Shown here: positions 22,332-35,396 of the stretch, in pieces
How positions within the stretch are numbered: the first letter of the stretch is position 1
Layout: every line of letters begins with the position of its first letter
Source: Bradyrhizobium guangzhouense
GTDB taxonomy: Bacteria; Pseudomonadota; Alphaproteobacteria; Rhizobiales; Xanthobacteraceae
Assembly (NCBI RefSeq): GCF_004114955.1
Contig: NZ_CP030053.1
Location: forward strand, 6,922,001-6,986,000
DNA length: 64,000 nt
Direction: 5' to 3'
The notes under the pieces: generated by a model
Database searches by the model: none
What the model was told of the DNA's origin: nothing
What the model saw: the letters and a program-made list of their open reading frames with translations, nothing else
Position numbers and translations under genes: made by a program

Positions 22332-24182
22332 CTAGCCGCAGGCGATCCACTCCGCCGACGCATGGTCGTTCAACCGCGCCACGGCGTCGGCGCGCCGCGT
22401 CAGCACGGCACGCTGGTTGATGTAACCTTTATCGGTGATCTCGCCGCCATCGACCGACGGCGGCTCGGTGAGCAGCAGCGCGCGCGTCGCGTGTCCGGAG
22501 GAATTGGCGCTCTGCTGCTTCAGTTTGGCCAAGCCTTGCGCGATCGTAGACCGGACCCTGTCATGCGCCAGCAGGTCGCTCACATCAGCAGTGTCCGGCA
22601 GGCCAGCATGAGCCCGGCACGCGGCGATATTCGGGAACACCAGGAAGCGCACCTCGTCGCCGCCATGGCCGCTGACGACGATATCCTGAGCCAGCGGCGC
22701 CAGCGCGGCGATGCCGGCGACGCGCAACGTGCCGACGCTGACCCAGGTGCCGGAGTTGAGCTTGAAATCCTCGGCGACACGGCCGTCAAAGAACAAGCCA
22801 CGTTCGGGCCGCTTCGGATCCGCAAGCTTCACGGCGTCGCCTATGAGATAGAAGCCCTCCTCGTCAAACGCCTGCTTTGTCAGCTCCGGCGCTTTCCAAT
22901 AGCCAGGCGTGACGTTGGGGCCACGCACCCGCACCTCCAGCTTGTCGCCGGAGGTCACGAGCTTCAACTCCGTACCAGGAATCGGCACGCCGATATTGCC
23001 GGAACGCTCCGCGAGGAAATGACAATCGGTCGCCAGCGGCGAGGTTTCCGTCGAGCCCCAGGCCGAGACCATCGGTAGCGCACGGCCAATGGTTTCGATG
23101 GAGAGCTGCTCCAGCGCGTCCCAGAGATTCTGCGGCAAGGCGGCACCGGCGTAGAAGGCGAACTTCACCTCGCGAAAGAAACGCCGGCGCAGCTCCTCGT
23201 CGCCACGCAGCGCCGCGATCAGCATGTCAAAGCCACGCGGCACGTTGAAATAGACCGTCGGCATCACGCTTTTCAGATTGGCGAGCGACGTTGAGAAGAG
23301 GCCGGGCGCGGGCTTGCCGCCGTCGATATAGAGCGAGCCGCCGTTGCGCAGCACGAGATTGAAATTGTGGTTGGCGCCGAACGTGTGGCTCCAGGGCAGC
23401 CAGTCGAGGATGACAAGATCATCGCCGTGTTCAAGAAAGGTCCAGGTCTGCGCCTTGGCCTGCTGGCTCGATGTCAGCATGCGCTGGGTGTTGATGACGG
23501 CCTTCGGCGTGCCGGTCGAACCCGAAGTGAACAGGAATTTTGCGATCGTATCCGGGGTCACGGCAGCGAAGGCCCTTGCAACGTCAGGCGTCTCGGCCGT
23601 CGCAGCGATGGCACGGAAAGCGAGCGCATCAGCGTCGCCAGCGACGCCACTAATGATCTGCGCCGTATGCAACGGCTTGATCGCAGCGAGGGCTGCCGCG
23701 AACGGCTTTGTGGCGGAAACATAGATCGCGCCGGGCTCGAGCAGCGCGATCATGCTTTTCAGCTTGTCGAAATCCCTCGACATCAGCGAATAGGCCGGCG
23801 AGATTGCGGCCGAGGGCACGCCGACATGCTGAGCCGCGAGCGCGAGCAGCGCATGGTCAATGCCATTGTCGGAGAGAATGACAAGGGGACGCTCCGCGCT
23901 CAGCTCTTGCGCCAAAATCCACGAGGCCGCCGCGCGAACCCGCCGCAAGGCACCCGCGTAAGTCACGGTGGCCCACGGCGTGTCGGCACTGTCGCGCTCC
24001 GCGAGGAATGTCCTGTCCGGTGTTTGCCGCGCCCATCGTTCCAGCCAGTCGCCGATACAACGCGCGCTATCGCGCAGGGGCTCGGGCGAGCGCAGCACGA
24101 CGCTGCCGTCGGCGCGATGCTCCGCGACTGTCTTGGGCGTTGCGAACAGGCTCGAAGCGTCACCGCGTGGGGCCGACGTCAT
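22332..24182 (-). CDS. fcs: Feruloyl-CoA synthetase (hydroxycinnamate-CoA ligase)
   Basis: A 616-residue acyl-adenylate-forming enzyme. The P-loop motif FTSGSTGTPKA, an A5-type segment SAWGSTETSP and the later GLFFDGRVAEDFK region are visible. Overall similarity by recognition is to feruloyl-CoA synthases (start MTSAPRGDASSLF). It activates ferulate, coumarate or caffeate with ATP and CoA. ATG at 24182 follows GAGGAGG. It lies just upstream of the tannase/feruloyl esterase gene and is divergent from a MarR regulator, the usual arrangement for hydroxycinnamate catabolism. The hydratase/aldolase step is not in the window. Confidence 0.85.
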   Translation of the reverse strand: MTSAPRGDASSLFATPKTVAEHRADGSVVLRSPEPLRDSARCIGDWLERWARQTPDRTFLAERDSADTPWATVTYAGALRRVRAAASWILAQELSAERPLVILSDNGIDHALLALAAQHVGVPSAAISPAYSLMSRDFDKLKSMIALLEPGAIYVSATKPFAAALAAIKPLHTAQIISGVAGDADALAFRAIAATAETPDVARAFAAVTPDTIAKFLFTSGSTGTPKAVINTQRMLTSSQQAKAQTWTFLEHGDDLVILDWLPWSHTFGANHNFNLVLRNGGSLYIDGGKPAPGLFSTSLANLKSVMPTVYFNVPRGFDMLIAALRGDEELRRRFFREVKFAFYAGAALPQNLWDALEQLSIETIGRALPMVSAWGSTETSPLATDCHFLAERSGNIGVPIPGTELKLVTSGDKLEVRVRGPNVTPGYWKAPELTKQAFDEEGFYLIGDAVKLADPKRPERGLFFDGRVAEDFKLNSGTWVSVGTLRVAGIAALAPLAQDIVVSGHGGDEVRFLVFPNIAACRAHAGLPDTADVSDLLAHDRVRSTIAQGLAKLKQQSANSSGHATRALLLTEPPSVDGGEITDKGYINQRAVLTRRADAVARLNDHASAEWIACG

Positions 24183-24259
24183 GTTTTCCTCCTCGCCCGT
24201 AACAGGGATCGGCCGCAACCTCGTTCCGGGCTGCTTTGCCGATAATGTCGGGCATGACA

Positions 24260-24280
24260 ATTGTTGTCGTCAACAACAAT
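24260..24280. promoter_or_regulatory. Candidate MarR operator between fcs and marR
   Basis: Perfect 8-bp arms ATTGTTGT and ACAACAAT around a 5-nt spacer, with an overlapping GACAA-TTG-TTGTC repeat at 24256-24268. The site lies in the 148-bp gap between divergent fcs and marR genes. Size and symmetry fit a MarR dimer site. Relief by a hydroxycinnamoyl-CoA is inferred from known MarR regulators of this pathway. Confidence 0.6.
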
Positions 24281-24825: not shown

Positions 24826-24913
24826 CACTGGCTGCACATGATTTGGGCAAATGCCCTGAGCCGGGCGTCGCTGCAACAGCCTGCTCGCTCATCAGCATTG
24901 CTCCCAAGCGGCT

Positions 24914-24930: not shown

Positions 24931-24964
24931 CGGAGCGGCCGTGCTGCCCGGATAATGTACACAA

Positions 24965-24980
24965 TGGCACATCGCTTGCT
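24965..24980 (+). promoter_or_regulatory. Sigma-54 (-24/-12) promoter of atzF
   Basis: TGGCAC at 24965-24970, five bases, then TTGCT at 24976-24980. The invariant GG and GC are exactly 10 bp apart, a full match to the RpoN consensus core. Transcription should begin about 12 bp downstream, near 24991, and atzF starts at 25020. An ATAATGTACACAAT sequence at 24952-24965 touches the -24 element and resembles a GntR-type operator. Confidence 0.8.
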
Positions 24981-25019
24981 TCATTCCGGGTGAAGACATG
25001 TTGCCGGAGTTTTGACGCC

Positions 25020-26840
25020 ATGGGGGCTGAACTAGGGGCTGAGCAGCCTGAAACGATCGCCGCGATTGTGGCCGCGCATCGCGCCGGCACGCTCACGCCG
25101 GCGCAGACGATCGCGCGCACGTATCAGCGCATCCGCGAGCGCAACGATCCCGCCGTCTTCATCAGCCTGCGCGACGAGAAGGACGCGATCGCCGAGGCCG
25201 AAAAGCTTGCGGCGCGCGCGGATGCCGCCAGCTTGCCGCTCTATGGCATTCCCGTCGCGGTGAAGGACAATATCGACGCACTCGGATTTCCGACCACGGC
25301 GGCCTGTCCGGCTTTCTCCTACACGCCGACCCATGACTCGACCGCGGTGGAGCGGCTGCGCGCGGCGGGCGCGATCATCATCGGCAAGACCAATCTCGAC
25401 CAGTTCGCCACGGGCCTCGTCGGCGTGCGCTCGCCCTATGGCATCCCGAAGAATTCGATCCGCGAGGATCTCATTCCCGGCGGCTCGAGCTCGGGCTCGG
25501 CTGTCGCGGTCGGCGCGGGACTGGTGCCGTTGTCGCTCGGCACCGACACCGCCGGCAGCGGCCGTGTGCCGGCAATGCTCAACAACATCGTCGGGCTGAA
25601 GCCGAGCCTCGGCATGATCTCGACCGCCGGCCTGGTGCCGGCCTGCCGCACGCTCGACTGCATCTCGGTGTTCGCGCTGACGGTCGACGATGCCGCGCTC
25701 GCGCTCTCGGTGATATCAGGCCCCGATCAGGCAGATCCGTTCTCGCGCGACCGGCCACTTGAGCCGACCATCCCCTTCCCTGCGAAGCTGCGCCTCGGCG
25801 TGCCTCGCAACGGGCAGCTGATCTTCTTCGGCGACAAGAAATCGGAAGCCGCCTACGCAGATGCGCTGAAGCGCTGGTCCGCACTTGGGGCAACGCTGGT
25901 CGAGTTCGATCTCGAGCCGTTCTACGAGACGGCGCGGCTGCTCTATGAGGGCCCGTGGGTCGCCGAGCGCTATCTCGTGATCAAGAATCTGCTGGCCTCC
26001 GCACCCGACTCGATCCATCCGGTGACGCGCGAGATCACCGCGGCCGGCGCGCGGCTGACGGCAGCCGAGACCTTCTCCGCGCTTTATCGCCTGCAAGGCC
26101 TGCGCAAGATCGCCGAGCGCGCGTTCGCCAACATCGATGCGCTGGTGCTGCCGACGGCGCCGACGGCCTATACGACCGCGCAGGTGCTGGCCAATCCGAT
26201 CGAGCTCAACAGCCGGCTCGGCACCTACACCAATTTCGTCAACCTGCTCGATCTCTGCGGCCTCGCTGTGCCGGCGTCGATGCGCACGGACGGCATCCCG
26301 TTCGGCATCACGCTGCTGGCGCCTGCAGGACGCGATGGGATGCTTGCGAGCATCGGCCGCGTCTTCCATGCGGATACCAAGCTGACCGTTGGCGCCAAGG
26401 GCGTGGCGCAGGCACCGCTTGCTGCCCTTCCCGGAAACAGCAGCGACGAAATTCCGATCGCCGTCGTCGGCGCACATCTCTCCGGCATGGCGCTGAACGG
26501 GGAATTGAAGGCGCTGAATGCGAGGCTGATCGAGGCGACCAGGACTGCGCCCGACTACAAGCTCTATGCGCTTCCGACCACGCCGCCGAAGCCCGGCATG
26601 TTGCGCGTCGAAGCCGGCAAGGGCGCATCGATCGAGCTCGAGATCTGGTCGCTCTCGTCGTCCGCGTTCGGCCAGTTCGTGAATGCGATTCCGGCGCCGA
26701 TGGCGATCGGAACGATTCGGCTGGCGGATGGTCGTAGCGTGAAAGGGTTTCTCGTCGAGCCGGAGGCGCTGGGCGAGGCGCGCGACATCACGGTGTATGG
26801 GGGATGGCGCGCGTATATGAAGGAAGCCGCCACGACATAG
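25020..26840 (+). CDS. atzF: Allophanate hydrolase (AtzF type)
   Basis: A 606-residue protein. Residues 1-450 are an amidase-signature domain with the Lys-Ser-Ser triad: Lys82 in GIPVAVKDN, Ser in PGGSSSGSAV, Ser in GTDTAGSGR. Residues about 460-600 match the small C-terminal domain of AtzF-type allophanate hydrolases (VVGAHLSGMALNGEL through EPEALGEARDITVYGGW). It converts allophanate to ammonia and carbon dioxide. Length fits AtzF rather than a plain amidase. A sigma-54 promoter lies just upstream; the convergent neighbour cluster carries atzG, atzE and atzH. ATG 25020 is chosen over an in-frame GTG at 24990. Confidence 0.92.
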   Translation: MGAELGAEQPETIAAIVAAHRAGTLTPAQTIARTYQRIRERNDPAVFISLRDEKDAIAEAEKLAARADAASLPLYGIPVAVKDNIDALGFPTTAACPAFSYTPTHDSTAVERLRAAGAIIIGKTNLDQFATGLVGVRSPYGIPKNSIREDLIPGGSSSGSAVAVGAGLVPLSLGTDTAGSGRVPAMLNNIVGLKPSLGMISTAGLVPACRTLDCISVFALTVDDAALALSVISGPDQADPFSRDRPLEPTIPFPAKLRLGVPRNGQLIFFGDKKSEAAYADALKRWSALGATLVEFDLEPFYETARLLYEGPWVAERYLVIKNLLASAPDSIHPVTREITAAGARLTAAETFSALYRLQGLRKIAERAFANIDALVLPTAPTAYTTAQVLANPIELNSRLGTYTNFVNLLDLCGLAVPASMRTDGIPFGITLLAPAGRDGMLASIGRVFHADTKLTVGAKGVAQAPLAALPGNSSDEIPIAVVGAHLSGMALNGELKALNARLIEATRTAPDYKLYALPTTPPKPGMLRVEAGKGASIELEIWSLSSSAFGQFVNAIPAPMAIGTIRLADGRSVKGFLVEPEALGEARDITVYGGWRAYMKEAATT

Positions 26841-26847
26841 GCGTGCC

Positions 26848-27570
26848 CTACACCGACACCGCGTAAATCTCATACTCCCCGCGCACCAGCTCGATATGAG
26901 CGCGCATCGCGGCCGCGGCGCCCTGCTTGTCACCGCGCATGATGGCGACGACGACGCGGTCGTGCTCGGCTTGTGACTTGGCGAGACGGCCAAGATTGCG
27001 AAACTGGGCGCGGCGGAACGGCTGCACGCGGACGCGGGTCGCCAGCGTGATCTCGGCGATGTAGCCGTTCTGCGAGCCCGCATAGATCGCGTTGTGGAAG
27101 CGTTCATTGACCTCGTGGAAGCGATCGGGATTGCCGGCGTAGCTGAGCACGCGCAACTCCTCATGGATTGCCTCCAAACCGTGACGCTCGGAGGCCGACA
27201 TACGTTCGGCCGCAAGGCCGGCACACAATGCCTCCAGCTCCGCCATCGCCTCGAACATGCTCTTGAGACGCTCGATCGAGGGCTGGGCGACGACCGCACC
27301 GCGGTGGGGGCGCGCCTCGACCAGGCCGCTCGTGACCAACTGACGCAGCGCTTCGCGCACCGGAGTGCGCGACACGCTGAAGCGCCGTGCGATGTCGGTC
27401 TCGTCCAGCGGCGCGCCAGGGGCCAGAGTTCCCCGCACGATCTCGTCGGCGAGCTGGAGACGCAGCTCCTCCGCGCGCGTGACCTTCTGCACCGACGGCG
27501 AGGCACGGTCGACGCGCGGCACCACCGGTTCGGCCGGCAGTGTCCCGGGCGGAAAATCGTCAAGCGTCAT
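26848..27570 (-). CDS. GntR/FCD-family transcriptional regulator
   Basis: A 240-residue regulator with an N-terminal winged helix (about 30-95; ETDIARRFSVSRTPVREALRQL) and a C-terminal FCD ligand domain (about 105-230, histidine-rich, FHEVNERFHNAIY). It is the last gene of the minus-strand importer-atzGEH run, 4 bp after atzH, and ends 7 bp from the convergent atzF stop. It probably senses a pathway intermediate and modulates both units. A GntR-like TGTACA-centred site overlaps the atzF promoter. Confidence 0.87.
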   Translation of the reverse strand: MTLDDFPPGTLPAEPVVPRVDRASPSVQKVTRAEELRLQLADEIVRGTLAPGAPLDETDIARRFSVSRTPVREALRQLVTSGLVEARPHRGAVVAQPSIERLKSMFEAMAELEALCAGLAAERMSASERHGLEAIHEELRVLSYAGNPDRFHEVNERFHNAIYAGSQNGYIAEITLATRVRVQPFRRAQFRNLGRLAKSQAEHDRVVVAIMRGDKQGAAAAMRAHIELVRGEYEIYAVSV

Positions 27571-27574
27571 ACGG

Positions 27575-27967
27575 TCAGGTCTCTTTCGACTCGTCGATGA
27601 TGCTGACATGGGCCGCGACGACGCGCCAGCCCTCCGGGAAGCGAATCCAGGTCTGCATCTGGCGGCCGACCTTGCCGGGGGCCGTGTCGCGATAGAACAG
27701 GGTGGAGGCCACCGCCGTGTCGCGGCCATAGCTCGATATCACCGTCTTCGCCCTGCGACGGTTAAGGCCGACCGGCGACCGGCCGGCGCGGAAGCCGGAG
27801 ATTGCCTCATAGCCATAGAGGTTCTCACCGATGCCATAGCGCAGCGTGCGGGGATCGTTGCGGAAGAGTTCACCGAGCACGGCGACGTCGTTGCTGACGA
27901 GGGCCTGCTCATAACGCTCGAACGCGGCTCTGACTTCCGCGATCACGTCGGCGAGATCGATCTCCAT
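27575..27967 (-). CDS. atzH: AtzH-like protein (1,3-dicarboxyurea hydrolase family, DUF3225)
   Basis: A 130-residue NTF2-fold protein of the AtzH-like/DUF3225 family (start [20 protein letters not shown], later [15 protein letters not shown]). In Pseudomonas strain ADP, AtzH hydrolyses 1,3-dicarboxyurea, the product of AtzE, to allophanate. Here it follows atzE by 12 bp and would supply allophanate to AtzF. AGAGG precedes the ATG. SnoaL-like proteins share the fold, but the context makes AtzH much the likeliest. Confidence 0.85.
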
Positions 27968-27979
27968 CTCAAAATCCTC

Positions 27980-29374
27980 TTAAAGTCCCCTTGGGGCTGG
28001 CGCGGCAACCACGCCCATCTTTTCCAATGCGTACGCGACGCGGAGCGCGATGTCTTCGCGCCAGGGCGCGCAGATGATCTGCACGCCGATCGGCATCGGC
28101 TCGAGCGGCACGGGCACCGCGACCACCGGCAGACCGATGAAGGAGATCGGCTGGGTGTGGATGCCGATATTGGCACGCACCGGCAGCTCGACGCCGTCGA
28201 GATTGAAATTGACCTGGCCGAGCTTCGGCGCCGTGCAGGGCGTTGCCGGCGCGAGCAGCACGTCGACGGACCTGAATATCTCGGCAAGCTGCGCGCGATA
28301 CCAGCGGCGGAATTTTTGCGCACGATCGACCAGCGCCGCCGGCACCATCGCGCCGGCGATCAGCCGGTCGCGTACGGCCGGATCGAAATCGTTCGGGCGC
28401 TTGCGCAGGCGATCGAGATGCAGCGAGGCACCTTCGGTGGTGGTGATGACGTAGGCCGCCGCGCGAGCGCGCGAGGCTTCGGGCACGTCGACCACCTTGG
28501 TCGCGTTGAGTGCCTTGGCGACACGGCTGACCGCCTCGACGGCTTCCGGGAACACGTTCGTCTGGAAGTGCCCGCCGGCGATTGCGATGCGCAGATCCGA
28601 GACCGGATTGGCGAGCAGCGGCAGCGTCGGCTCCAACCCACGCGTCGTGCAAGCGCCATCGTCGGCATCCGGGCCCTGCATGGCGTCATAGGCAAGCGCG
28701 AGGTCGGTGACGGAACGTGCGAACGGGCCGAGATGGTCGAGGCTCGCGACGAACGGGAACGAGCGCGCGCGCGACAGCCGGCCATAGGTCGGCTTGAGGC
28801 CAAAGATGCCGCAGAAGGAAGCCGGCACGCGGATCGAGCCGTTGGTGTCGGAACCGAGCGCGATCGGCACCAATGCACTGCCGACGGCGCTGCCCGAGCC
28901 GCCGGAGGAGCCGCCGCTCATCCGCGTGGTGTCATGCGGATTGCGTGAGGGACCGTCATGGATGTTCTCGCCGGTGAAGTCGTAGGCGTATTCGCCCATG
29001 TTGAGTGCGCCGACCAGCACAGCCCCGGCGGCCTCCATCCGCTCGATCAGCGTCGCGTCGCGCCCGGCGGGTGCGAGATCGCGGTTGATCTTCGAGCCGG
29101 CCCGCGTCGCCAGGCCTGCGACGTCGAACAGATTCTTCACCGCGAAGGGCACGCCGGCGAGCGGGCCGACGGTCTTGCCGACCGCGATGTCGGCATCGAT
29201 GGCTTTCGCTCTCTCGCGCGCGCGATCGGCGGTGACGTCGGTGAAGGCGTTGAGGGTGGTGTCGCGCTGCTTGATGCGGGTAAGAGCCGATTCAGTCGCA
29301 TCGATTGCGGACATCTTGCGGGCTGCGACCGCGCTCGCAATCTCGGCGGCCGTCATCTCTGGCTTGGAGGTCAT
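27980..29374 (-). CDS. atzE: 1-carboxybiuret hydrolase catalytic subunit (AtzE family amidase)
   Basis: A 464-residue amidase-signature enzyme with Lys80 (GVPFAVKNLFD), cis-Ser near 156 (MSGGSSGGSGSA) and nucleophile Ser180 (GSDTNGSIR). It follows the AtzG-like small subunit gene by 7 bp, the arrangement of the AtzE-AtzG complex that deaminates 1-carboxybiuret to 1,3-dicarboxyurea. As a lone gene it would only be called an amidase; the atzG and atzH neighbours decide the call. Its natural substrate here may differ, because no cyanuric acid hydrolase is present. Confidence 0.87.
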   Translation of the reverse strand: MTSKPEMTAAEIASAVAARKMSAIDATESALTRIKQRDTTLNAFTDVTADRARERAKAIDADIAVGKTVGPLAGVPFAVKNLFDVAGLATRAGSKINRDLAPAGRDATLIERMEAAGAVLVGALNMGEYAYDFTGENIHDGPSRNPHDTTRMSGGSSGGSGSAVGSALVPIALGSDTNGSIRVPASFCGIFGLKPTYGRLSRARSFPFVASLDHLGPFARSVTDLALAYDAMQGPDADDGACTTRGLEPTLPLLANPVSDLRIAIAGGHFQTNVFPEAVEAVSRVAKALNATKVVDVPEASRARAAAYVITTTEGASLHLDRLRKRPNDFDPAVRDRLIAGAMVPAALVDRAQKFRRWYRAQLAEIFRSVDVLLAPATPCTAPKLGQVNFNLDGVELPVRANIGIHTQPISFIGLPVVAVPVPLEPMPIGVQIICAPWREDIALRVAYALEKMGVVAAPAPRGL

Positions 29375-29381
29375 GGCAGCA

Positions 29382-29561
29382 TCAGGCCGTGAAGATCGGC
29401 GCCGGCTCGGTCTCGTCCGGCAGCGCGAATTCGTCGACCATGCGGCCAAGCCGCAGCGACACCTCGAGATTGGCGCGCACCGCAGGCCTCCAGGCTTCCT
29501 CGACCGGCAGCGCCAGCGCTTTCGATACGGCGTCGATATAATCGTCCAGCGGCTCGGCCAT
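29382..29561 (-). CDS. atzG: AtzG-like small subunit (DUF4089) of carboxybiuret hydrolase
   Basis: A 59-residue protein (start MAEPLDDYIDAVSKALALPV, ending ETEPAPIF-T-A) of the AtzG/DUF4089 family. It is a helical subunit that stabilises AtzE, analogous to GatC for GatA. ATG at 29561 is preferred over the GTG immediately before it because GGGAG is better spaced. It lies between the importer ATPase gene (19-bp gap) and atzE (7-bp gap), showing that transport and hydrolysis share one transcript. Confidence 0.85.
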   Translation of the reverse strand: MAEPLDDYIDAVSKALALPVEEAWRPAVRANLEVSLRLGRMVDEFALPDETEPAPIFTA

Positions 29562-29580
29562 CACGCTCCCAAATAGTCTC

Positions 29581-31302
29581 TCAGTGTATCTGCAGCGGCG
29601 GATGCGGGATCGCCGTCAGCAGCTCCTTGGTGTAGTCGTCCTGCGGATCGCTCAAGACCTGCTCGGAAGCGCCCTCTTCGACGATCCGCCCCGCCCGCAT
29701 CACAATGACACGATCGCACAACAAGCGCACTACATTCAAATCATGCGAAACGAACAGATAGCTCATACCTAGCCGCGCCTTCAGGTCCTGGAGCAGGTTC
29801 AGGACAACCGCCTGCACCGAGACGTCCAGCGCCGCGGTCGGCTCGTCCAGGATGACCAGCTTCGGATGCAGCGCGATGGCGCGGGCGATGCCGACGCGGG
29901 CCTTCTGGCCGCCGGACAGCTGGTGCGGAAAACGATCGAGCAGATTGTGCGGCAGGCCGACCATGGTGGCCAGTTCCTCGCAGCGGGCGCGAAGCGCGTC
30001 GCGGCCCCTGATATCGCCGAGCTGAATGATGGGATCGGCGATGGCGCGCGCGGCGGTGAAGCGCGGGTTGAGACTGTCGGTCGGATCCTGGAACACCATC
30101 TGGATACGGCTGCGCTGCGGCAGCCGGGCGAAGCTGGCAGGCTGAATACCGCCGATGTCCTCGCCGTCGAACTGGATCAGGCCGGAAGTCTGGTCCAGGA
30201 GGCGCATCACCATCATCGACGTGGTCGATTTGCCGCAGCCGGATTCGCCGACCAGGCCGACGCTCTCGCCATGGCCGATCGCGAAGCTGATGCCGTCGAC
30301 GGCGCGGAACATGTCCGGCTCAACGGGCGGCTTGCGGCCGAACAGTTTTCCGAGCGTGGCGGTGGCGCCCTGGCGGGGATATTCTTTCACCAGCTTTTCG
30401 ATGAGCAGGAGAGGCTTTTGGCTCTCCGCGGCGGCGGATGGTGCTGGCTCCGCGGGGGCGGCGAGTATCGCACCCTCCTCCTCCGGCAGCAGGTCTCTCA
30501 GCGACACCCCGAGCCGCGGCGTCGCGCGCATCAGTTTCTTGGTGTAGGGGTGCTGCGGGCTCGCGAAGATGTCGGCGGCCTTGGCGGTCTCGACGACGCG
30601 ACCCTTCTCCATCACCACGACGCGGTCGCAATAGGCGGCCGCCAAGCCCAGATCGTGGGTGATCAGGATGGTCGACATCGCCTTGCGCTTCGTCAGCTCG
30701 ACGATCAGGTCCATCACCGCCTTTTGCGTGGTGACGTCCAACCCGGTGGTCGGCTCGTCGGCGATCAGCAGCTGCGGATTGCAGGCGAGCGCCAGCGCGA
30801 TGACGACGCGCTGGCACATGCCGCCCGACAGCTCGAACGGATAAGCGTGGTAGCGCTCGCGCGGGCGGGCGATCTTGACCTGCTCCAGCGCCTCGATCGC
30901 CCTCTCGCCGTGATCGGCAACCTGGGCCTGCTGCACATGGGTGCGCAAGACGTCCTCGATCTGGTCGCCCACCTTGCGGATCGGGTTGAGCGCGGCGCGC
31001 GGGTTCTGGAAGATCATCGAGACTTCGCGGCCGCGCAGATCGCGCATCTGGGCTTCGCTCGCGGCCTTCACGTCGATGCCGGAGAACATCACCGATCCTT
31101 CGGCGATCTTGCCGGCGCGGTCGAGGATGCGCATCACCGCGTAGGAGGTCACCGACTTGCCGGAGCCGGACTCGCCGACGATGGCGAGCGTCTCGCCCTT
31201 GGCGACGGAGATGTTGACGTGCTGCACGGCCTTGACGATGCCGCGGCGGGTGGTGAATTCGACGGTGAGATCCTGGACGTCGAGCAGCGGCTGGGCGGTC
31301 AC
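29581..31302 (-). CDS. Dipeptide/oligopeptide-type ABC importer, fused double ATPase (DppD-DppF)
   Basis: A 573-residue protein with two complete ABC ATPase domains. The first (about 1-270) has Walker A GESGSGKS and signature LSGGMCQR; the second (about 300-565) has GESGCGKS and LSGGQKAR, and each has its own Asp-Glu Walker B. In many systems these are two proteins, DppD and DppF; here they are fused. The start is GTG at 31302 after GGAGG. It powers the importer encoded by the next two permease genes and the binding protein, presumably bringing in the substrate for AtzGE. Confidence 0.9.
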   Translation of the reverse strand: MTAQPLLDVQDLTVEFTTRRGIVKAVQHVNISVAKGETLAIVGESGSGKSVTSYAVMRILDRAGKIAEGSVMFSGIDVKAASEAQMRDLRGREVSMIFQNPRAALNPIRKVGDQIEDVLRTHVQQAQVADHGERAIEALEQVKIARPRERYHAYPFELSGGMCQRVVIALALACNPQLLIADEPTTGLDVTTQKAVMDLIVELTKRKAMSTILITHDLGLAAAYCDRVVVMEKGRVVETAKAADIFASPQHPYTKKLMRATPRLGVSLRDLLPEEEGAILAAPAEPAPSAAAESQKPLLLIEKLVKEYPRQGATATLGKLFGRKPPVEPDMFRAVDGISFAIGHGESVGLVGESGCGKSTTSMMVMRLLDQTSGLIQFDGEDIGGIQPASFARLPQRSRIQMVFQDPTDSLNPRFTAARAIADPIIQLGDIRGRDALRARCEELATMVGLPHNLLDRFPHQLSGGQKARVGIARAIALHPKLVILDEPTAALDVSVQAVVLNLLQDLKARLGMSYLFVSHDLNVVRLLCDRVIVMRAGRIVEEGASEQVLSDPQDDYTKELLTAIPHPPLQIH

Positions 31303-31390
31303 GAATGCCTCCGGTCGCTCACAGGCGCGAAAACAACCCCATGCACAGTAGAGGCGGCACTGAAATCATTGGCGAATTTCTGCCGATCCA

Positions 31391-32290
31391 TCACGTCCTC
31401 CGCTGCGGATCGACGATGTCGCGGAGGCCGTCGCCGAGCAGGTTGAAGCAGAACACGGCGATCATCAGCGCAAGGCCGGGGAACAGCGCGATCCACCATT
31501 CGCCCGAGACCATGAAGCCCGCGCCCTCGGCGACCATGATGCCCCATTCGGCGGTCGGCGGGCGAACGCCGAGGCCGATGAAGGAGAGGCCGGCGGCATT
31601 GAGGATGGCGTAGCCCATGGTCAGCGACATCTGCACGATCATGATCGGCATGATGTTCGGCAGGATATGCACCAGGAGGATGCGGAATTCGCCGTTGCCT
31701 GACAGCCGCGCGGCCTGCACGAAGCCGGCGTTGCGGCGGACATTGGCCTCCGCGCGCGCGACGCGGGCGTAGAGCGGGAAGTTCACGATGGCGGTGGCGA
31801 GAATGATGTTCTGCACGGTGTTGCCGAGCGCGGCGACGATGCCCATCGCCAGCACGAACAGCGGGAAGGCCATGATGGTGTCGGCGATGCGGCCGACGAT
31901 GCGATCGGTCCAGCCGCCGAAATAGCCGGCGGCGATGCCGGCAAGGCCGCCCATCAGGAACACCAGCACGACGGAGGCGACCGCGATGAAGGTATCGAGC
32001 CGCGTCGCCACCACGACGCGGCTGAAGATGTCGCGCCCGAGCTGATCGGTGCCGAACCAGTGCGCGGCCGACGGTGGCTTCAGCGCCGCCGCCGTGTCGG
32101 AGGCGAGCGGATCGTAGGGCACCACATAGGGGCCGAAGATCGCCGCGATCAGGATCAGGATCAGCAGCGCGAAAGCAAAACCCGTGACCTTGTTCTCGCT
32201 CAGCACATAGCGGGTCTGTTCGAGGATCGCGGATAGTCCCGAGGTACGCGCGGGACCGACGGGTTCAACGGCTGGCGCAACGGAGCTCAT
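31391..32290 (-). CDS. Dipeptide/oligopeptide-type ABC importer permease (DppC family)
   Basis: A 299-residue permease with an N-terminal membrane segment, the DppC-type GTDQLGRDIFSRV motif near residue 95 and about six membrane spans. The transporter-permease EAA-like loop lies around ARVARAEANVRRNAGFV. The gene begins 3 bp after dppB. An 88-bp gap to the ATPase gene contains nothing notable. Confidence 0.9.
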   Translation of the reverse strand: MSSVAPAVEPVGPARTSGLSAILEQTRYVLSENKVTGFAFALLILILIAAIFGPYVVPYDPLASDTAAALKPPSAAHWFGTDQLGRDIFSRVVVATRLDTFIAVASVVLVFLMGGLAGIAAGYFGGWTDRIVGRIADTIMAFPLFVLAMGIVAALGNTVQNIILATAIVNFPLYARVARAEANVRRNAGFVQAARLSGNGEFRILLVHILPNIMPIMIVQMSLTMGYAILNAAGLSFIGLGVRPPTAEWGIMVAEGAGFMVSGEWWIALFPGLALMIAVFCFNLLGDGLRDIVDPQRRT

Positions 32291-32293
32291 GGT

Positions 32294-33307
32294 TTAGCCC
32301 TCCAGCCTGACACGCGGATCGATCACGCCGTACAAGATATCGATCACGAGATTGAGCAGCACGTACATCACCGCCATGGTGAGGACAAAGCCCTGCACCG
32401 GCGCGAAGTCCGATGAGATCAGCGCTTCCACCGCGTAAGAGCCGATGCCGGGCCAGGCGAAGACTTTTTCCACCAGCACGTTGGCCCCTAACAGGAACGA
32501 GAACACCATGCTGAGCGTGGTGATCACGGGCAGCATCGCGTTGCGGAAGGCGTAGGTGACGATGACGGTCGTCGGCGACAGGCCGCTGGCGCGCGCGGTG
32601 CGGACGAATTCGGACGCCAGCACCGCCAGCATCGAGGCGCGGGTCATGCGGGCGATCGGCGCCAGCGAGAAGATCGCAAGCGTCGTCGCCGGCAGGATGA
32701 GCTGGCTCAGCGCCGAGCGGAACGCCTCGAAGTCGCGTGCGAGCAGCGTGTCGATCAGGTAGAATCCGGTGACCGTCGGCGGCGCGCTGTAGAAGACGTC
32801 GAGCCGGCCGAGCGGCGCGGGCGACCAGCCGAGCTGGAAGTAAAAGAAGTAGACCAACACCAGGCCGGTGAAGAACACCGGCAGTGAGACGCCGGCTGTC
32901 GTCGTGATGCGACATAAGTGATCGACCCATGATCCCGGCCGCGTCGCCGCCAGCACGCCGAGCGGAATGGCGATGACGATGGAGACGATGAGGCCGAGCA
33001 ATGTCAGCTCGGCCGAGGCCGGCAGGCGATTGCGGATCTCGGTCGCGACCGGCTGTCCCGTGGTGAGCGAATTGCCGAAATCGCCATGCGCAAGATCGTT
33101 GGTGTAGCGGAAGAACTGCTCGATCAGCGGCTTATCGAGGCCGAGCTTCTTCCTGACCTGCTCGACCGCTTCCTTGGTCGCGGCGGGACCCGCGAAATAC
33201 GCGGCCGGATCACCCGGCAGCGCGCGCGTCAGCAGGAAGGTCACGATGACGACGCCGATGAGCGAGGGAATCGCAAACATCAGGCGCTTGCCGATCATGG
33301 TCAGCAT
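32294..33307 (-). CDS. Dipeptide/oligopeptide-type ABC importer permease (DppB family)
   Basis: A 337-residue permease with the N-terminal DppB pattern (IGKRLMFAIPSLIGVVIVTF, FLLTRALPGDPA) and about six membrane spans. ATG at 33307 follows AGGAG at 7 nt; an upstream in-frame extension runs through a repeat and is rejected. It lies 239 bp after the binding-protein gene, with a palindromic repeat in the gap, which may set different message levels for the two parts. Confidence 0.9.
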   Translation of the reverse strand: MLTMIGKRLMFAIPSLIGVVIVTFLLTRALPGDPAAYFAGPAATKEAVEQVRKKLGLDKPLIEQFFRYTNDLAHGDFGNSLTTGQPVATEIRNRLPASAELTLLGLIVSIVIAIPLGVLAATRPGSWVDHLCRITTTAGVSLPVFFTGLVLVYFFYFQLGWSPAPLGRLDVFYSAPPTVTGFYLIDTLLARDFEAFRSALSQLILPATTLAIFSLAPIARMTRASMLAVLASEFVRTARASGLSPTTVIVTYAFRNAMLPVITTLSMVFSFLLGANVLVEKVFAWPGIGSYAVEALISSDFAPVQGFVLTMAVMYVLLNLVIDILYGVIDPRVRLEG

Positions 33308-33334
33308 GGGGCGCTCCTGCGCGGGCTTGCTTCG

Positions 33335-33501
33335 CCTCTCCCGCTTGCGGGAGAGGCCGACGCGCCCCGGGCGATGCGAAAGCATCGTCCCGAGCGTGGC
33401 GGGTGAGGGCTCTCACTACCTAGGGACATCCCCCGTAATCCCTGGCGATCCCAACGCGGAGACACCCTCTCCCCAACCCTCTCCCGCAAGCGGGAGAGGG
33501 A
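33335..33501. repeat. Palindromic repeat, CTCTCCC family (long copy)
   Basis: A 167-bp element bounded by CTCTCCCGC/GCGGGAGAG hairpins at both ends (33335-33356 and 33480-33501), with an internal GATGC-GAAA-GCATC hairpin. It fills the gap between the binding-protein and permease genes within the importer operon. The same ends occur at 44761-44890. Confidence 0.75.
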
Positions 33502-33546
33502 GCCCACTGCCGATGCCGATGCGTCGCTGACGATCAGCATGATCCT

Positions 33547-35169
33547 TCACCCCTTCGCCATCGCGCGATAGTCGAGCCTGCGGTGGAACCAATACTGGTA
33601 ACCGCTGATGTTCTTCTGCATCGCGACGTTGACGAAGGGTTGATACAGCGGGATGCGCGGGATGTCGGTGAAGGCGAGATCGACAAAGCCCTTCACGTCG
33701 GCATCGTAAGCTGCCTTGTCGCCTGATGCGGCCGCGGTGCGCGCGCCGTCGATCAGCTTGTCCATCTCCGCCGACTTGTAGCTCATGGTGTTGAAGACGG
33801 AATTGTTGCCGTGATAGCACCAGTAGAAGAAGTATTCGGGGTAATCGAGCCAGCCCGAGAACACGTTGGTGAAGAGCGGCATCTCCTTCTTGTTCAATTC
33901 GGTGCGCCAGTTGGCGCCGGGCACCTTGTTGATGGTGGTCTTGATGCCGATCTGCGCCAGACTCTCCTGCACCAGCACGCAGAGCGGCTCGTTGACGCCG
34001 GCGAAATTGAGATCAAACGAGATCGTGGTCTCGAAGCCGCCCGCGAGCCCCGCTTCCGCCATCAGCGCCTTCGCCTTGTCCATGTCGGTGTTGTATTTGT
34101 GCGGCTGCGGCCAGGCGACTTCGGTCGGCTTGTCCGCAGGCGCGCCGAACATCGGGTTCGCCAGCCCGAACATCACCGCGTCCATGATCTTCTGATAGGG
34201 CAGCGCATAGGCGACCGCCTGGCGCACCTTCGGATTGTCGAAGGGCGGCCTGGTGACGTTCATGCCGATATATTGGATGCCGTTGGAGAACGGCAGCGAG
34301 ACGACGTTGAGCTTGCCGTTCGCCTTCATCTCCTGAAAGTCCTTGTTCGGCAGCTCGTAGGAGACGTCGGCGTCCCCGCGCTCCAGCAGCGCGCGGCGGT
34401 TGCCGGCCTGCGGCACCATGCGCCAGATCACGCGCTTGATCTTCGGCAAGGGACCGCAGACCCAATCGTCGTTGCGCTCCATCACCACTTCCGTGCCGGC
34501 AGTCCATTTCGTCACCTTGTAGGCGCCGGAGCCCGCGGTCTGCTGCTTCGTATATTCGAGACCCCAGGGGTCCTTCTCGCTGGAATGCTTCTTCACCAGC
34601 TCGGAGTTGACGATGCAGGGCACGATGACGGCGAGGTCGGGGATCGTCAGCCTGTCCTTCTTCAGGAAATCGATGCGCACGGTGTAGTCGTCGATCACGA
34701 CGAACTGCTCCGGCTTGGTGAGCGAGCCCGCGCTCATCTGGAAGGTCGGGAAGCCGCCGACGCTGACGGCGCGGTCGAGCGACCACTTCACGTCCTTCGC
34801 GGTCACAGGCGCGCCGTCGTGAAATTTGGCGTTCTTGCGCAGCTTGAAGGTGACCGACATATCGTCGATCTTGAACTCTTCGGCGAGCTCGCCCTTGAAC
34901 TTGTCGCGGTCGTAATAGGGCACGCCGCCGGGACCGCTCTTCATCTCGTGGCTGATCAGGCGGTCGTAGCAATTCCACGACACCTCATAGCCGGGCACGT
35001 TGGTGCCGACGCCGTGGATGTCGAGATTGTTGGGGCCGCCCTCGGAGACGATCAGCAGCGTCTCGGAGCGGGCATCGGCATAGGCCGAGGTGATGACATC
35101 AGGCGCGGCCGGAAGCGCCGCGCCAGCGGCCAATCCGGAAACGGATTTAAGGAAATCGCGGCGCTTCAT
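33547..35169 (-). CDS. Dipeptide/oligopeptide-type ABC importer binding protein
   Basis: A 540-residue family-5 extracellular solute-binding protein. The N terminus is a Tat signal (MKRRDFLKSVSGLAAGAALP) with the twin arginine, so it is exported folded. The mature part shows the family pattern AKFHDGAPVTAKDVKWSLDR. It is the first gene of an eight-gene minus-strand run ending with the GntR gene. A sigma-54 promoter lies 42 bp upstream. The ligand is probably a biuret-, urea- or peptide-like nitrogen compound, by inference from atzGEH in the same operon. Confidence 0.9.
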   Translation of the reverse strand: MKRRDFLKSVSGLAAGAALPAAPDVITSAYADARSETLLIVSEGGPNNLDIHGVGTNVPGYEVSWNCYDRLISHEMKSGPGGVPYYDRDKFKGELAEEFKIDDMSVTFKLRKNAKFHDGAPVTAKDVKWSLDRAVSVGGFPTFQMSAGSLTKPEQFVVIDDYTVRIDFLKKDRLTIPDLAVIVPCIVNSELVKKHSSEKDPWGLEYTKQQTAGSGAYKVTKWTAGTEVVMERNDDWVCGPLPKIKRVIWRMVPQAGNRRALLERGDADVSYELPNKDFQEMKANGKLNVVSLPFSNGIQYIGMNVTRPPFDNPKVRQAVAYALPYQKIMDAVMFGLANPMFGAPADKPTEVAWPQPHKYNTDMDKAKALMAEAGLAGGFETTISFDLNFAGVNEPLCVLVQESLAQIGIKTTINKVPGANWRTELNKKEMPLFTNVFSGWLDYPEYFFYWCYHGNNSVFNTMSYKSAEMDKLIDGARTAAASGDKAAYDADVKGFVDLAFTDIPRIPLYQPFVNVAMQKNISGYQYWFHRRLDYRAMAKG

Positions 35170-35210
35170 GAGACTGCTCCAACACGGAAGTTTCTGGTTG
35201 GAACAGGATT

Positions 35211-35226
35211 CGCAAGGTTCGTGCCA
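35211..35226 (-). promoter_or_regulatory. Sigma-54 (-24/-12) promoter of the importer-atzGEH operon
   Basis: On the minus strand TGGCAC (35226-35221), five bases beginning with G, then TTGCG (35215-35211). The GG and GC invariants are 10 bp apart, and the T before TGGCACG also matches the consensus. The start codon of the binding-protein gene is at 35169. A perfect palindrome TTGCATGCAA at 35322-35331, about 100 bp upstream, is at a usual distance for an enhancer-binding activator. Confidence 0.8.
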
Positions 35227-35396
35227 AGGGTTAGCGGGAGGTTAAATCAAGTGTAAACAGTTGATATTCCTGATGTACTGTCGAATACGCGGTCGAGAAG
35301 CCGTGGCTTGAGTTCCAGGCATTGCATGCAAAGAAAGACATTTTGCTTATTTAATAGGCCGCGATTGAAGTCAGCACAACCAATAGGCAAGGGCCG

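Follow-up and report, generated by a model that had tools for sequence, protein, structure and literature searches.

What controls the two atz-type gene sets of Bradyrhizobium guangzhouense, and which nitrogen compounds do they serve? We investigated this question in a stretch of 64,000 nt (NZ_CP030053.1, positions 6,922,001-6,986,000; assembly GCF_004114955.1), called the window below, from a genome of 8.14 Mb. The window holds two convergent gene sets, or arms, which probably import and degrade urea-chain compounds. One arm is atzF, and the other is a run of importer genes, atzG, atzE, atzH and gntR. A preliminary description of this DNA had placed a sigma-54 promoter before each arm and had proposed nitrogen control. 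We consider it rather probable that these are working sigma-54 promoters in a regulon that is driven by NtrC and RpoN, gated by a GntR regulator, and devoted to nitrogen from triuret, carboxybiuret and allophanate. The NtrC activator, the GntR repressor with two modes of action, and triuret as a substrate are the parts that we infer. The argument starts from the elements in the DNA, their conservation and spacing, the same elements at an unlinked triuret hydrolase-like gene (trtA), and a relative in which trtA, a putative permease gene and atzF stand in tandem.

The two arms meet tail to tail. Their open reading frames (ORFs) end at 26840 (plus strand) and 26848 (minus strand) with 7 bp between them, and the promoters therefore lie at the outer ends, a layout that the preliminary description had not pointed out. 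The promoters are as follows.

24965..24979, plus strand: TGGCACATCGCTTGC, sigma-54 -24/-12 promoter of atzF, an exact match to TGGCACN5TTGC, with a predicted start at about 24991.
35212..35226, minus strand: TGGCACGAACCTTGC, sigma-54 -24/-12 promoter of the importer operon, an exact match to TGGCACN5TTGC, with a predicted start at about 35200.

Both sites lie where they had been placed before, and in each of them GG and GC are separated by exactly 10 bp. The earlier claim that the window has no other such site also holds, in that these two are its only exact TGGCACN5TTGC matches on both strands. Three additional sites have one mismatch (40948, minus strand; 41239 and 62193, plus strand). When up to two mismatches were allowed, 57 sites were found in the window versus 69.9 in shuffles, that is, no enrichment; thus, only the exact sites stand out. 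In the whole genome, which has two rpoN matches, the exact pattern occurs 33 times versus 12 times for the reversed control.

We then scored the window with an RpoN matrix, a check that had been suggested together with the sites. The matrix was built from 70 published sites of Bradyrhizobium sp. DOA9, with the orthologue of this locus excluded. It ranked TGGCACATCGCTTGC first (15.1) and TGGCACGAACCTTGC second (13.9). The third rank (13.5; 23865, minus strand, within the ORF 22332-24260) is close to the second, and so the matrix by itself cannot isolate TGGCACGAACCTTGC. None of 60 random Markov windows had two sites as good by this matrix. According to the standard -24/-12 numbering, the predicted leaders are 29 nt to ATG 25020 (atzF) and 31 nt to ATG 35169 (the binding protein gene). 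The listed GTG start at 24990 was rejected for atzF because it coincides with the predicted +1. The atzF start codon is nevertheless uncertain, since the alignment of many relatives begins only at residue 5 or 11.

To explore conservation, the AtzE of the window was used as a query and 80 loci were obtained, 74 of them titled Bradyrhizobium. Gene order and convergence are as in the window in most loci among those listed. The upstream region of atzF was scorable in 72 loci (L071 is cut by a contig end, and seven have no atzF match at or above 50% identity), and that of the substrate-binding protein gene (sbp) in 62 (L047 and L073 are cut, and 16 have no sbp, several because of a contig end). 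A sigma-54 site precedes atzF in 70 of the 72 loci (68 exact, two with one mismatch) and the binding protein gene in 62/62 (60 exact, two with one mismatch). When each arm is narrowed to its 29 more divergent sequences, conservation is 99% at the ten core positions and 49-50% for the region from -60 to -12. In L107, one of the two loci that lack a site directly before atzF, the promoter lies two genes farther upstream. Six importer-less loci had sufficient upstream sequence. In three of them atzG is preceded by a site (L102 at -109, L107 at -93, and L111 at -368 with one mismatch), in each case with the enhancer-type dyad described below. Within the genus, 255 of 265 genomes have AtzF itself.

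Expression data come from Bradyrhizobium sp. DOA9. RNA-seq of its rpoN mutants in microaerobic N2-fixing cells found atzF strongly down and genes named atzE, dppB, dppD and dppF down, and Table 1 of that study enters TGGCACGAACCTTGC for a peptide/nickel binding protein, at position -43 (PMC13207237). This 15-mer has one copy in DOA9, at the orthologous promoter position in L034, and the DOA9 genome encodes a single true AtzF (92%), with the second-best match at 35%. Thus, earlier work on a close relative has reported that atzF depends on RpoN and that the importer has a predicted RpoN site together with altered expression (PMC13207237). The sigma-54 reading of the preliminary description is supported by the conservation in relatives, by the sites before atzG and by these mutants. 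Could the two sites be chance matches? Near-matches are frequent in G+C-rich DNA, as the 57 sites with up to two mismatches indicate. However, conservation, matched leaders, common upstream elements and the published RpoN dependence disfavour chance, which we regard as extremely improbable. Sigma-54 control of both arms is near certain.

Sigma-54 promoters raise the question of the activator. Alignment of the promoters revealed a 17-bp dyad, TGCYYA-N5-TRRGCA, and the window has one before each arm.

24833..24849, plus strand: TGCACATGATTTGGGCA, candidate NtrC enhancer for atzF, a dyad of the form TGC-N11-GCA whose start lies 132 bp ahead of the T in TGGCAC.
35344..35360, minus strand: GGCCTATTAAATAAGCA, candidate NtrC enhancer for the importer operon, a dyad of the TGC-N11-GCA type placed 134 bp ahead of the T in TGGCAC; its outer end is GGC instead of TGC.

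Motif counts here and below refer to the promoters with a sigma-54 site at up to one mismatch, plus the window (71 for atzF, 63 for sbp). Ten or more of the 12 dyad letters are present in 70/71 atzF and 58/63 sbp promoters, and in about 4% of shuffles. It starts mostly at -131 to -133 or -121 to -123 in atzF promoters, and at -132 to -135, less often -122 to -125 or -109 to -111, in sbp promoters. Judged informally, these starts step by about 11 bp, about one helical turn, as would be expected for an enhancer-bound activator.

A dyad matrix was trained on the relatives with the window excluded (background quantiles: 99%, 5.3; 99.9%, 9.3). The window dyads scored 18.8 (atzF) and 19.4 (importer) against the 99.9% quantile, which is expected for orthologues. 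Elsewhere in the same genome, high scores were obtained at urtA (18.2) and glnB (15.4 and 12.4); the glnB gene of B. japonicum is NtrC-dependent. We scored 30 of the 33 exact sigma-54 sites of the genome, of which 9 exceeded the 99% background quantile and 21 fell below it. Exact sites with dyads were also seen at the genes of a BMP-family binding protein (L009, 13.5) and an ABC ATPase (L013, 14.8), which are candidates for further NtrC targets. One of the two strict consensus matches in the genome, L143 (C1:635262-635278), is a near-perfect dyad, TGCCTATGATTTAGGCA; the other is L144.

Which protein would read the dyad? The genome encodes an NtrC equivalog (TIGR01818, 747 bits versus a cut-off of 559). 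It has 13 matches to sigma-54 activators, eight of them strong: one equivalog each of NtrC, NtrX, NifA and FlbD, plus four that reach no equivalog cut-off. NifA was considered and rejected: its upstream activator motif is TGT-N10-ACA, which occurs in 0/71 atzF and 3/63 sbp promoters, not above shuffles. The promoters might still be served by NtrX or an uncharacterised enhancer-binding protein, with control not driven by ammonia, because NtrC is just one of the eight strong activators. We regard this as distinctly unlikely. The dyad is the published rhizobial motif, since gel shifts and footprints in Sinorhizobium have verified TGC-N11-GCA with an A/T-rich centre as the NtrC motif (PMC10746234), and it recurs here at glnB and urtA, whereas the NifA motif is not enriched in either promoter set. 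NtrC is thus the likely activator of both promoters as judged from these motifs. The nitrogen control proposed earlier acquires a physical footing from the dyads before the two promoters, from their recurrence at glnB and urtA, and from the NtrC equivalog of the genome, and it stays at the level of inference.

The promoters contain a second element, which the preliminary description had lacked.

24954..24965, plus strand: AATGTACACAAT, palindrome overlapping -24, candidate GntR operator of atzF.
35321..35332, minus strand: TTTGCATGCAAT, candidate GntR operator of the importer arm, locked to the dyad.

In 67/71 atzF promoters, TTGTAYRCAA matched in nine or all ten letters sits precisely at -10 and overlaps -24 (about 1% of shuffles). 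The same threshold was reached in 63/63 sbp promoters (1-2% of shuffles), there always 28-29 bp after the dyad start, and in this arm, when the distance between dyad and promoter steps, the palindrome shifts with the dyad. Palindromes resembling TTGTATACAA are frequent targets of GntR/FCD regulators. Clusters with trtA from other genera were compared in three plasmid-collection records (L231, Methylobacterium; L232, Microvirga; L233, Terrarubrum). The palindrome lies beside gntR in all three, with 9/10, 10/10 and 9/10 letters, respectively; the score was reached by 5, 0 and 10 of 500 shuffles in the same order. This position beside gntR points to GntR as the reader of the palindrome.

In these three records, neither a sigma-54 site of this type next to the palindrome nor an exact sigma-54 site with a dyad was found. 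One-mismatch sites without a dyad occur in Methylobacterium (8522) and in Microvirga (9904, just before trtA), and the Methylobacterium record has one exact site, which faces away from the cluster. These records also bear on another explanation, in which the TTGTAYRCAA elements serve a different factor or are part of the sigma-54 promoter. It would account for an element that abuts -24 at a fixed place in atzF and trtA and that moves with the enhancer in the importer arm. However, the element stands beside gntR in the three other genera without an adjacent sigma-54 site of this type, and we give this explanation a minor chance. GntR is the likely reader of the palindromes, and the elements are its candidate operators.

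One of the 33 sigma-54 sites of the genome (C1:5308614-5308628) precedes a gene for an isochorismatase-fold hydrolase about 1.6 Mb away, a member of the proposed regulon that is absent from the preliminary description.

C1:5307889-5308575 (L021; L230:5890-6576), minus strand: TrtA-like gene with promoter, operator and enhancer elements as at atzF.

At this promoter, ATTGTACACAATGGCAC lies at -24. The best match of the product is the solved TrtA triuret hydrolase (287 bits), followed by BiuH (228) and RutB (95). We checked the 13 residues of TrtA that are named as catalytic, as substrate-contacting or as differing from BiuH (PMC7948467). All 13 are present, including the catalytic D24, K129 and C162 and those that differ from BiuH. 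Furthermore, the product falls below the NCBIfam BiuH equivalog cut-off (265 versus 370 bits) and also below that of RutB. The gene was found in 242 of 257 genomes of the genus. Eight of the ten genomes without an atzF match also lack trtA, a count that assumes that the 257 genomes lie within the 265 and ignores phylogeny and incomplete genomes.

We examined 50 trtA promoters, the one in the genome of the window included; they consist of the 30 best matches and 20 picked among lower ones. A sigma-54 site with up to one mismatch is present in 50/50 and the overlapping operator in 46/50. The dyad exceeds the 99% background quantile in 45/50, and 41 of these have it at -132. Table 1 of the DOA9 study lists an Isochorismatase with TGGCACGGCGCTTGC at -37 (PMC13207237); this entry fits the trtA gene and may correspond to it.

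The gene order in relatives also joins trtA to the locus. The 554-aa product of the gene after trtA has no Pfam or NCBIfam match. We regard it as a putative permease because of its hydrophobic sequence; the relative in Terrarubrum carries no annotation beyond that of a regulator. In Bradyrhizobium sp. S69 (L107), trtA, the putative permease gene and atzF form a tandem behind one such promoter and converge with atzGEH-gntR. In Terrarubrum flagellatum, the genes for binding proteins, permeases, ATPase, trtA, putative permease, atzF, atzG, atzE and atzH form one same-strand run, which adjoins a divergent gntR. The E. coli conjugative plasmid pCh101 (L234) encodes a cysteine hydrolase that shares 62% identity with the TrtA-like protein and has DUF2877, fdrA, DUF1116, carbamate kinase and cytosine permease genes as neighbours; of 285 plasmid records with a match, 78 are from Escherichia.

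The substrate has to be judged from the enzymes, and the genes of the two arms are the following.

25020..26840, plus strand: atzF, allophanate hydrolase of 606 aa (Pfam Amidase and AH_C; NCBIfam TIGR02713, 822 bits versus a cut-off of 511).
26848..27615, minus strand: gntR, GntR/FCD regulator, start codon uncertain (Pfam GntR and FCD).
27575..27967, minus strand: atzH, NTF2-fold, AtzH/HpxZ-like (Pfam AtzH-like, 194.6 bits).
27980..29374, minus strand: atzE, carboxybiuret hydrolase-type amidase (NCBIfam AtzE, 749 bits; best PDB match 6c62, 497 bits).
29382..29561, minus strand: atzG, 59 aa (Pfam AtzG-like, 58 bits).
29581..31302, minus strand: fused Opp/Dpp-type ATPase (DF; Pfam ABC_tran in two stretches, and oligo_HPY).
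31391..32290, minus strand: permease C (Pfam BPD_transp_1 and OppC_N).
32294..33307, minus strand: permease B (Pfam BPD_transp_1 and BPD_transp_1_N).
33547..35169, minus strand: substrate-binding protein of family 5, which heads the importer-atzGEH-gntR run (Pfam SBP_bac_5).

The structure 6c62 is deposited under the name Biuret hydrolase, and we take it to be the AtzE of Pseudomonas ADP. The atzH product matches the ADP AtzH (6bjt) with 146 bits. For the gntR product, no NCBIfam equivalog above cut-off was found. A gene with a glutamine synthetase-family catalytic domain also lies in the window, at 1725-2741, distant from the atz locus.

TrtA converts triuret to carboxybiuret (PMC7948467). 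AtzEG acts on carboxybiuret, AtzH probably acts on its product, and AtzF acts on allophanate (PMC6219798). TrtB and BiuH have been named as generally required for triuret mineralisation (PMC12625717). On these enzyme assignments, TrtA, AtzEG, AtzH and AtzF would together mineralise triuret without TrtB and BiuH, and triuret is plausible as the main substrate. We found no literature that joins triuret and Bradyrhizobium, in a search that misses most subscription papers, and nothing on this locus was found in the available parts of PMC4842269 and PMC3596328.

The presence of an AtzD-type gene in the genome makes cyanuric acid a rival or a second source.

L229:6019-7146, C1 at about 6.1 Mb: AtzD-type cyanuric acid hydrolase gene.

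The regulon might serve cyanuric acid, with ring opening by the AtzD-type enzyme to carboxybiuret and completion by atzGEH and atzF as in Pseudomonas ADP. The AtzD-type protein scores 531 bits versus a cut-off of 360 in the NCBIfam model, and its best PDB matches are cyanuric acid amidohydrolases. However, the gene lies outside the operon, 0.85 Mb from the locus, and the family is present in 158/257 genomes of the genus, compared with 242/257 for trtA and 255/265 for atzF. Up to 500 bp upstream of the gene, one sigma-54 candidate was found, and TGTACACA or TGTATGCA was not found. AtzD was rejected as a co-regulated member because this best upstream candidate is a two-mismatch site at -363. Cyanuric acid as the compound that the regulon serves therefore seems improbable to us, and both triuret and cyanuric acid may be used.

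Oxalurate is a weaker rival, raised by the AtzH-like protein, which passes the NCBIfam HpxZ equivalog cut-off (194 versus 135 bits). AtzG, AtzE and AtzH would then act as HpxX, HpxY and HpxZ on oxalurate in purine breakdown, and atzF would be a neighbour that handles urea-carboxylase products. In Enterobacteriaceae, atzGEH indeed clusters with ggt and allantoate genes (PMC6219798). On the other side, AtzE passes AtzE models and atzF the allophanate hydrolase model, the operator and enhancer are common to atzF, trtA and the operon, and these genes form one run in Terrarubrum flagellatum and are adjacent in L107. We consider oxalurate very improbable.

The following mechanism can be proposed. 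Under nitrogen shortage, phosphorylated NtrC would bind the 17-bp TGC-N11-GCA dyad about 110-135 bp upstream and would activate RpoN polymerase at both promoters. GntR, encoded by the last gene of the importer operon, would bind the TTGTAYRCAA palindromes and add control by substrate. At atzF and the unlinked trtA, the operator over -24 would block polymerase; in the importer arm, where the operator keeps a fixed distance of 28-29 bp to the enhancer, the activator would be its target. As a whole, the regulon would import urea-chain compounds and strip them to ammonia, with triuret passing to 1-carboxybiuret (TrtA-like protein), 1,3-dicarboxyurea (AtzEG), allophanate (AtzH), and finally ammonia and CO2 (AtzF).

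Several points weigh against this reading. As for the promoters, no sigma-54 site was found within 300 bp of atzF in L108, a Tardiphaga metagenome-assembled genome (its atzF, 52% identical, lies divergent beside the importer operon, not convergent), and no such promoter was found within 1.5 kb of atzG in three of the six importer-less loci (L089, L091 and L103). The atzE and dpp genes that are down in the DOA9 rpoN mutants may lie outside this locus, and Table 1 of that study does not list the site of atzF (PMC13207237). NifA may also act in such N2-fixing microaerobic cells.

As for the enhancer, TGCACATGATTTGGGCA and GGCCTATTAAATAAGCA each match 11 of 12 consensus letters, short of the strict consensus, and the helical stepping is an informal judgement. 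The strict consensus occurs at two places genome-wide (L143 and L144) versus five for the reversed control; with two places only and no enrichment, it was rejected as a genome-wide finder. The dyad score of glnII, a classic NtrC target, is weak (6.0), and for the positive control glnK no sigma-54-like site with up to two mismatches was found close upstream. The dyad and operator consensus sequences were derived from the promoters that were counted, which leaves glnB, urtA, trtA and the other genera as independent tests. As for the operator, the window palindrome is ATGTACACAA, and hence the pattern TTGTNNRCAATGG misses the window, while it matches five other places in the genome (L169-L172 and L174) versus none for the reversed control. 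Finally, the AtzD-type gene could supply carboxybiuret.

A wider proposal is put forward tentatively, as one that may well prove wrong. A triuret route independent of BiuH and TrtB, made of TrtA, AtzEG, AtzH and AtzF, would be a near-core nitrogen-scavenging regulon of Bradyrhizobium and a native role of atzGEH outside triazine herbicides. One GntR repressor would gate it in two ways, covering -24 at trtA and atzF and standing at a fixed spacing beside the NtrC enhancer in the importer arm. The role of atzG-atzE-atzH clusters beyond triazine degraders is an open question (PMC6219798). Because promoter, enhancer and operator are common with a TrtA-type gene, the triuret answer can be tested directly in a common genus of soil and nodules. 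The two placements of one operator would also provide a natural comparison of repressor gating at an enhancer-driven promoter.

The dyads at stepped distances, the palindromes and the TrtA-like member are new here, while RpoN dependence has largely been published (PMC13207237) and related control is already known from the Pseudomonas ADP atz operons (PMC6834077). The RpoNc regulon of DOA9 has the identical importer site, and atzF and atzE fall in its rpoN mutants. However, in the available part of that paper these genes are not treated as one locus, and NtrC appears only in a reference title (PMC13207237).

Pseudomonas sp. ADP carries homologues of atzG-E-H and atzF and a transporter in atzDGEHF and atzRSTUVW, and both operons have sigma-54 promoters and are induced by nitrogen starvation (PMC6834077). 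The ADP operons are plasmid-borne and divergent, with one enzyme operon that includes atzD, and AtzR responds to cyanuric acid. In contrast, the locus studied here is chromosomal and convergent, with a separate atzF, no linked atzD and an Opp-type importer. Its atzG, atzE and atzH are contiguous as in the ADP-type operon, and its linked regulator is of the GntR/FCD type instead of a LysR-type AtzR.

The TGC-N11-GCA dyad with its A/T-rich centre resembles the Sinorhizobium NtrC sites, although the nfeR1 site represses and has no sigma-54 signature (PMC10746234). The beta-proteobacterial clusters of atzG-E-H and allophanate hydrolase share the gene set with ABC transporters, but there the allophanate gene lies upstream on the same strand (PMC6219798), whereas here it converges. 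The Herbaspirillum triuret pathway (TrtA-TrtB-BiuH-AtzF) likewise has TrtA first and AtzF last (PMC7948467); here, the middle steps would fall to AtzEG and AtzH instead of TrtB and BiuH.

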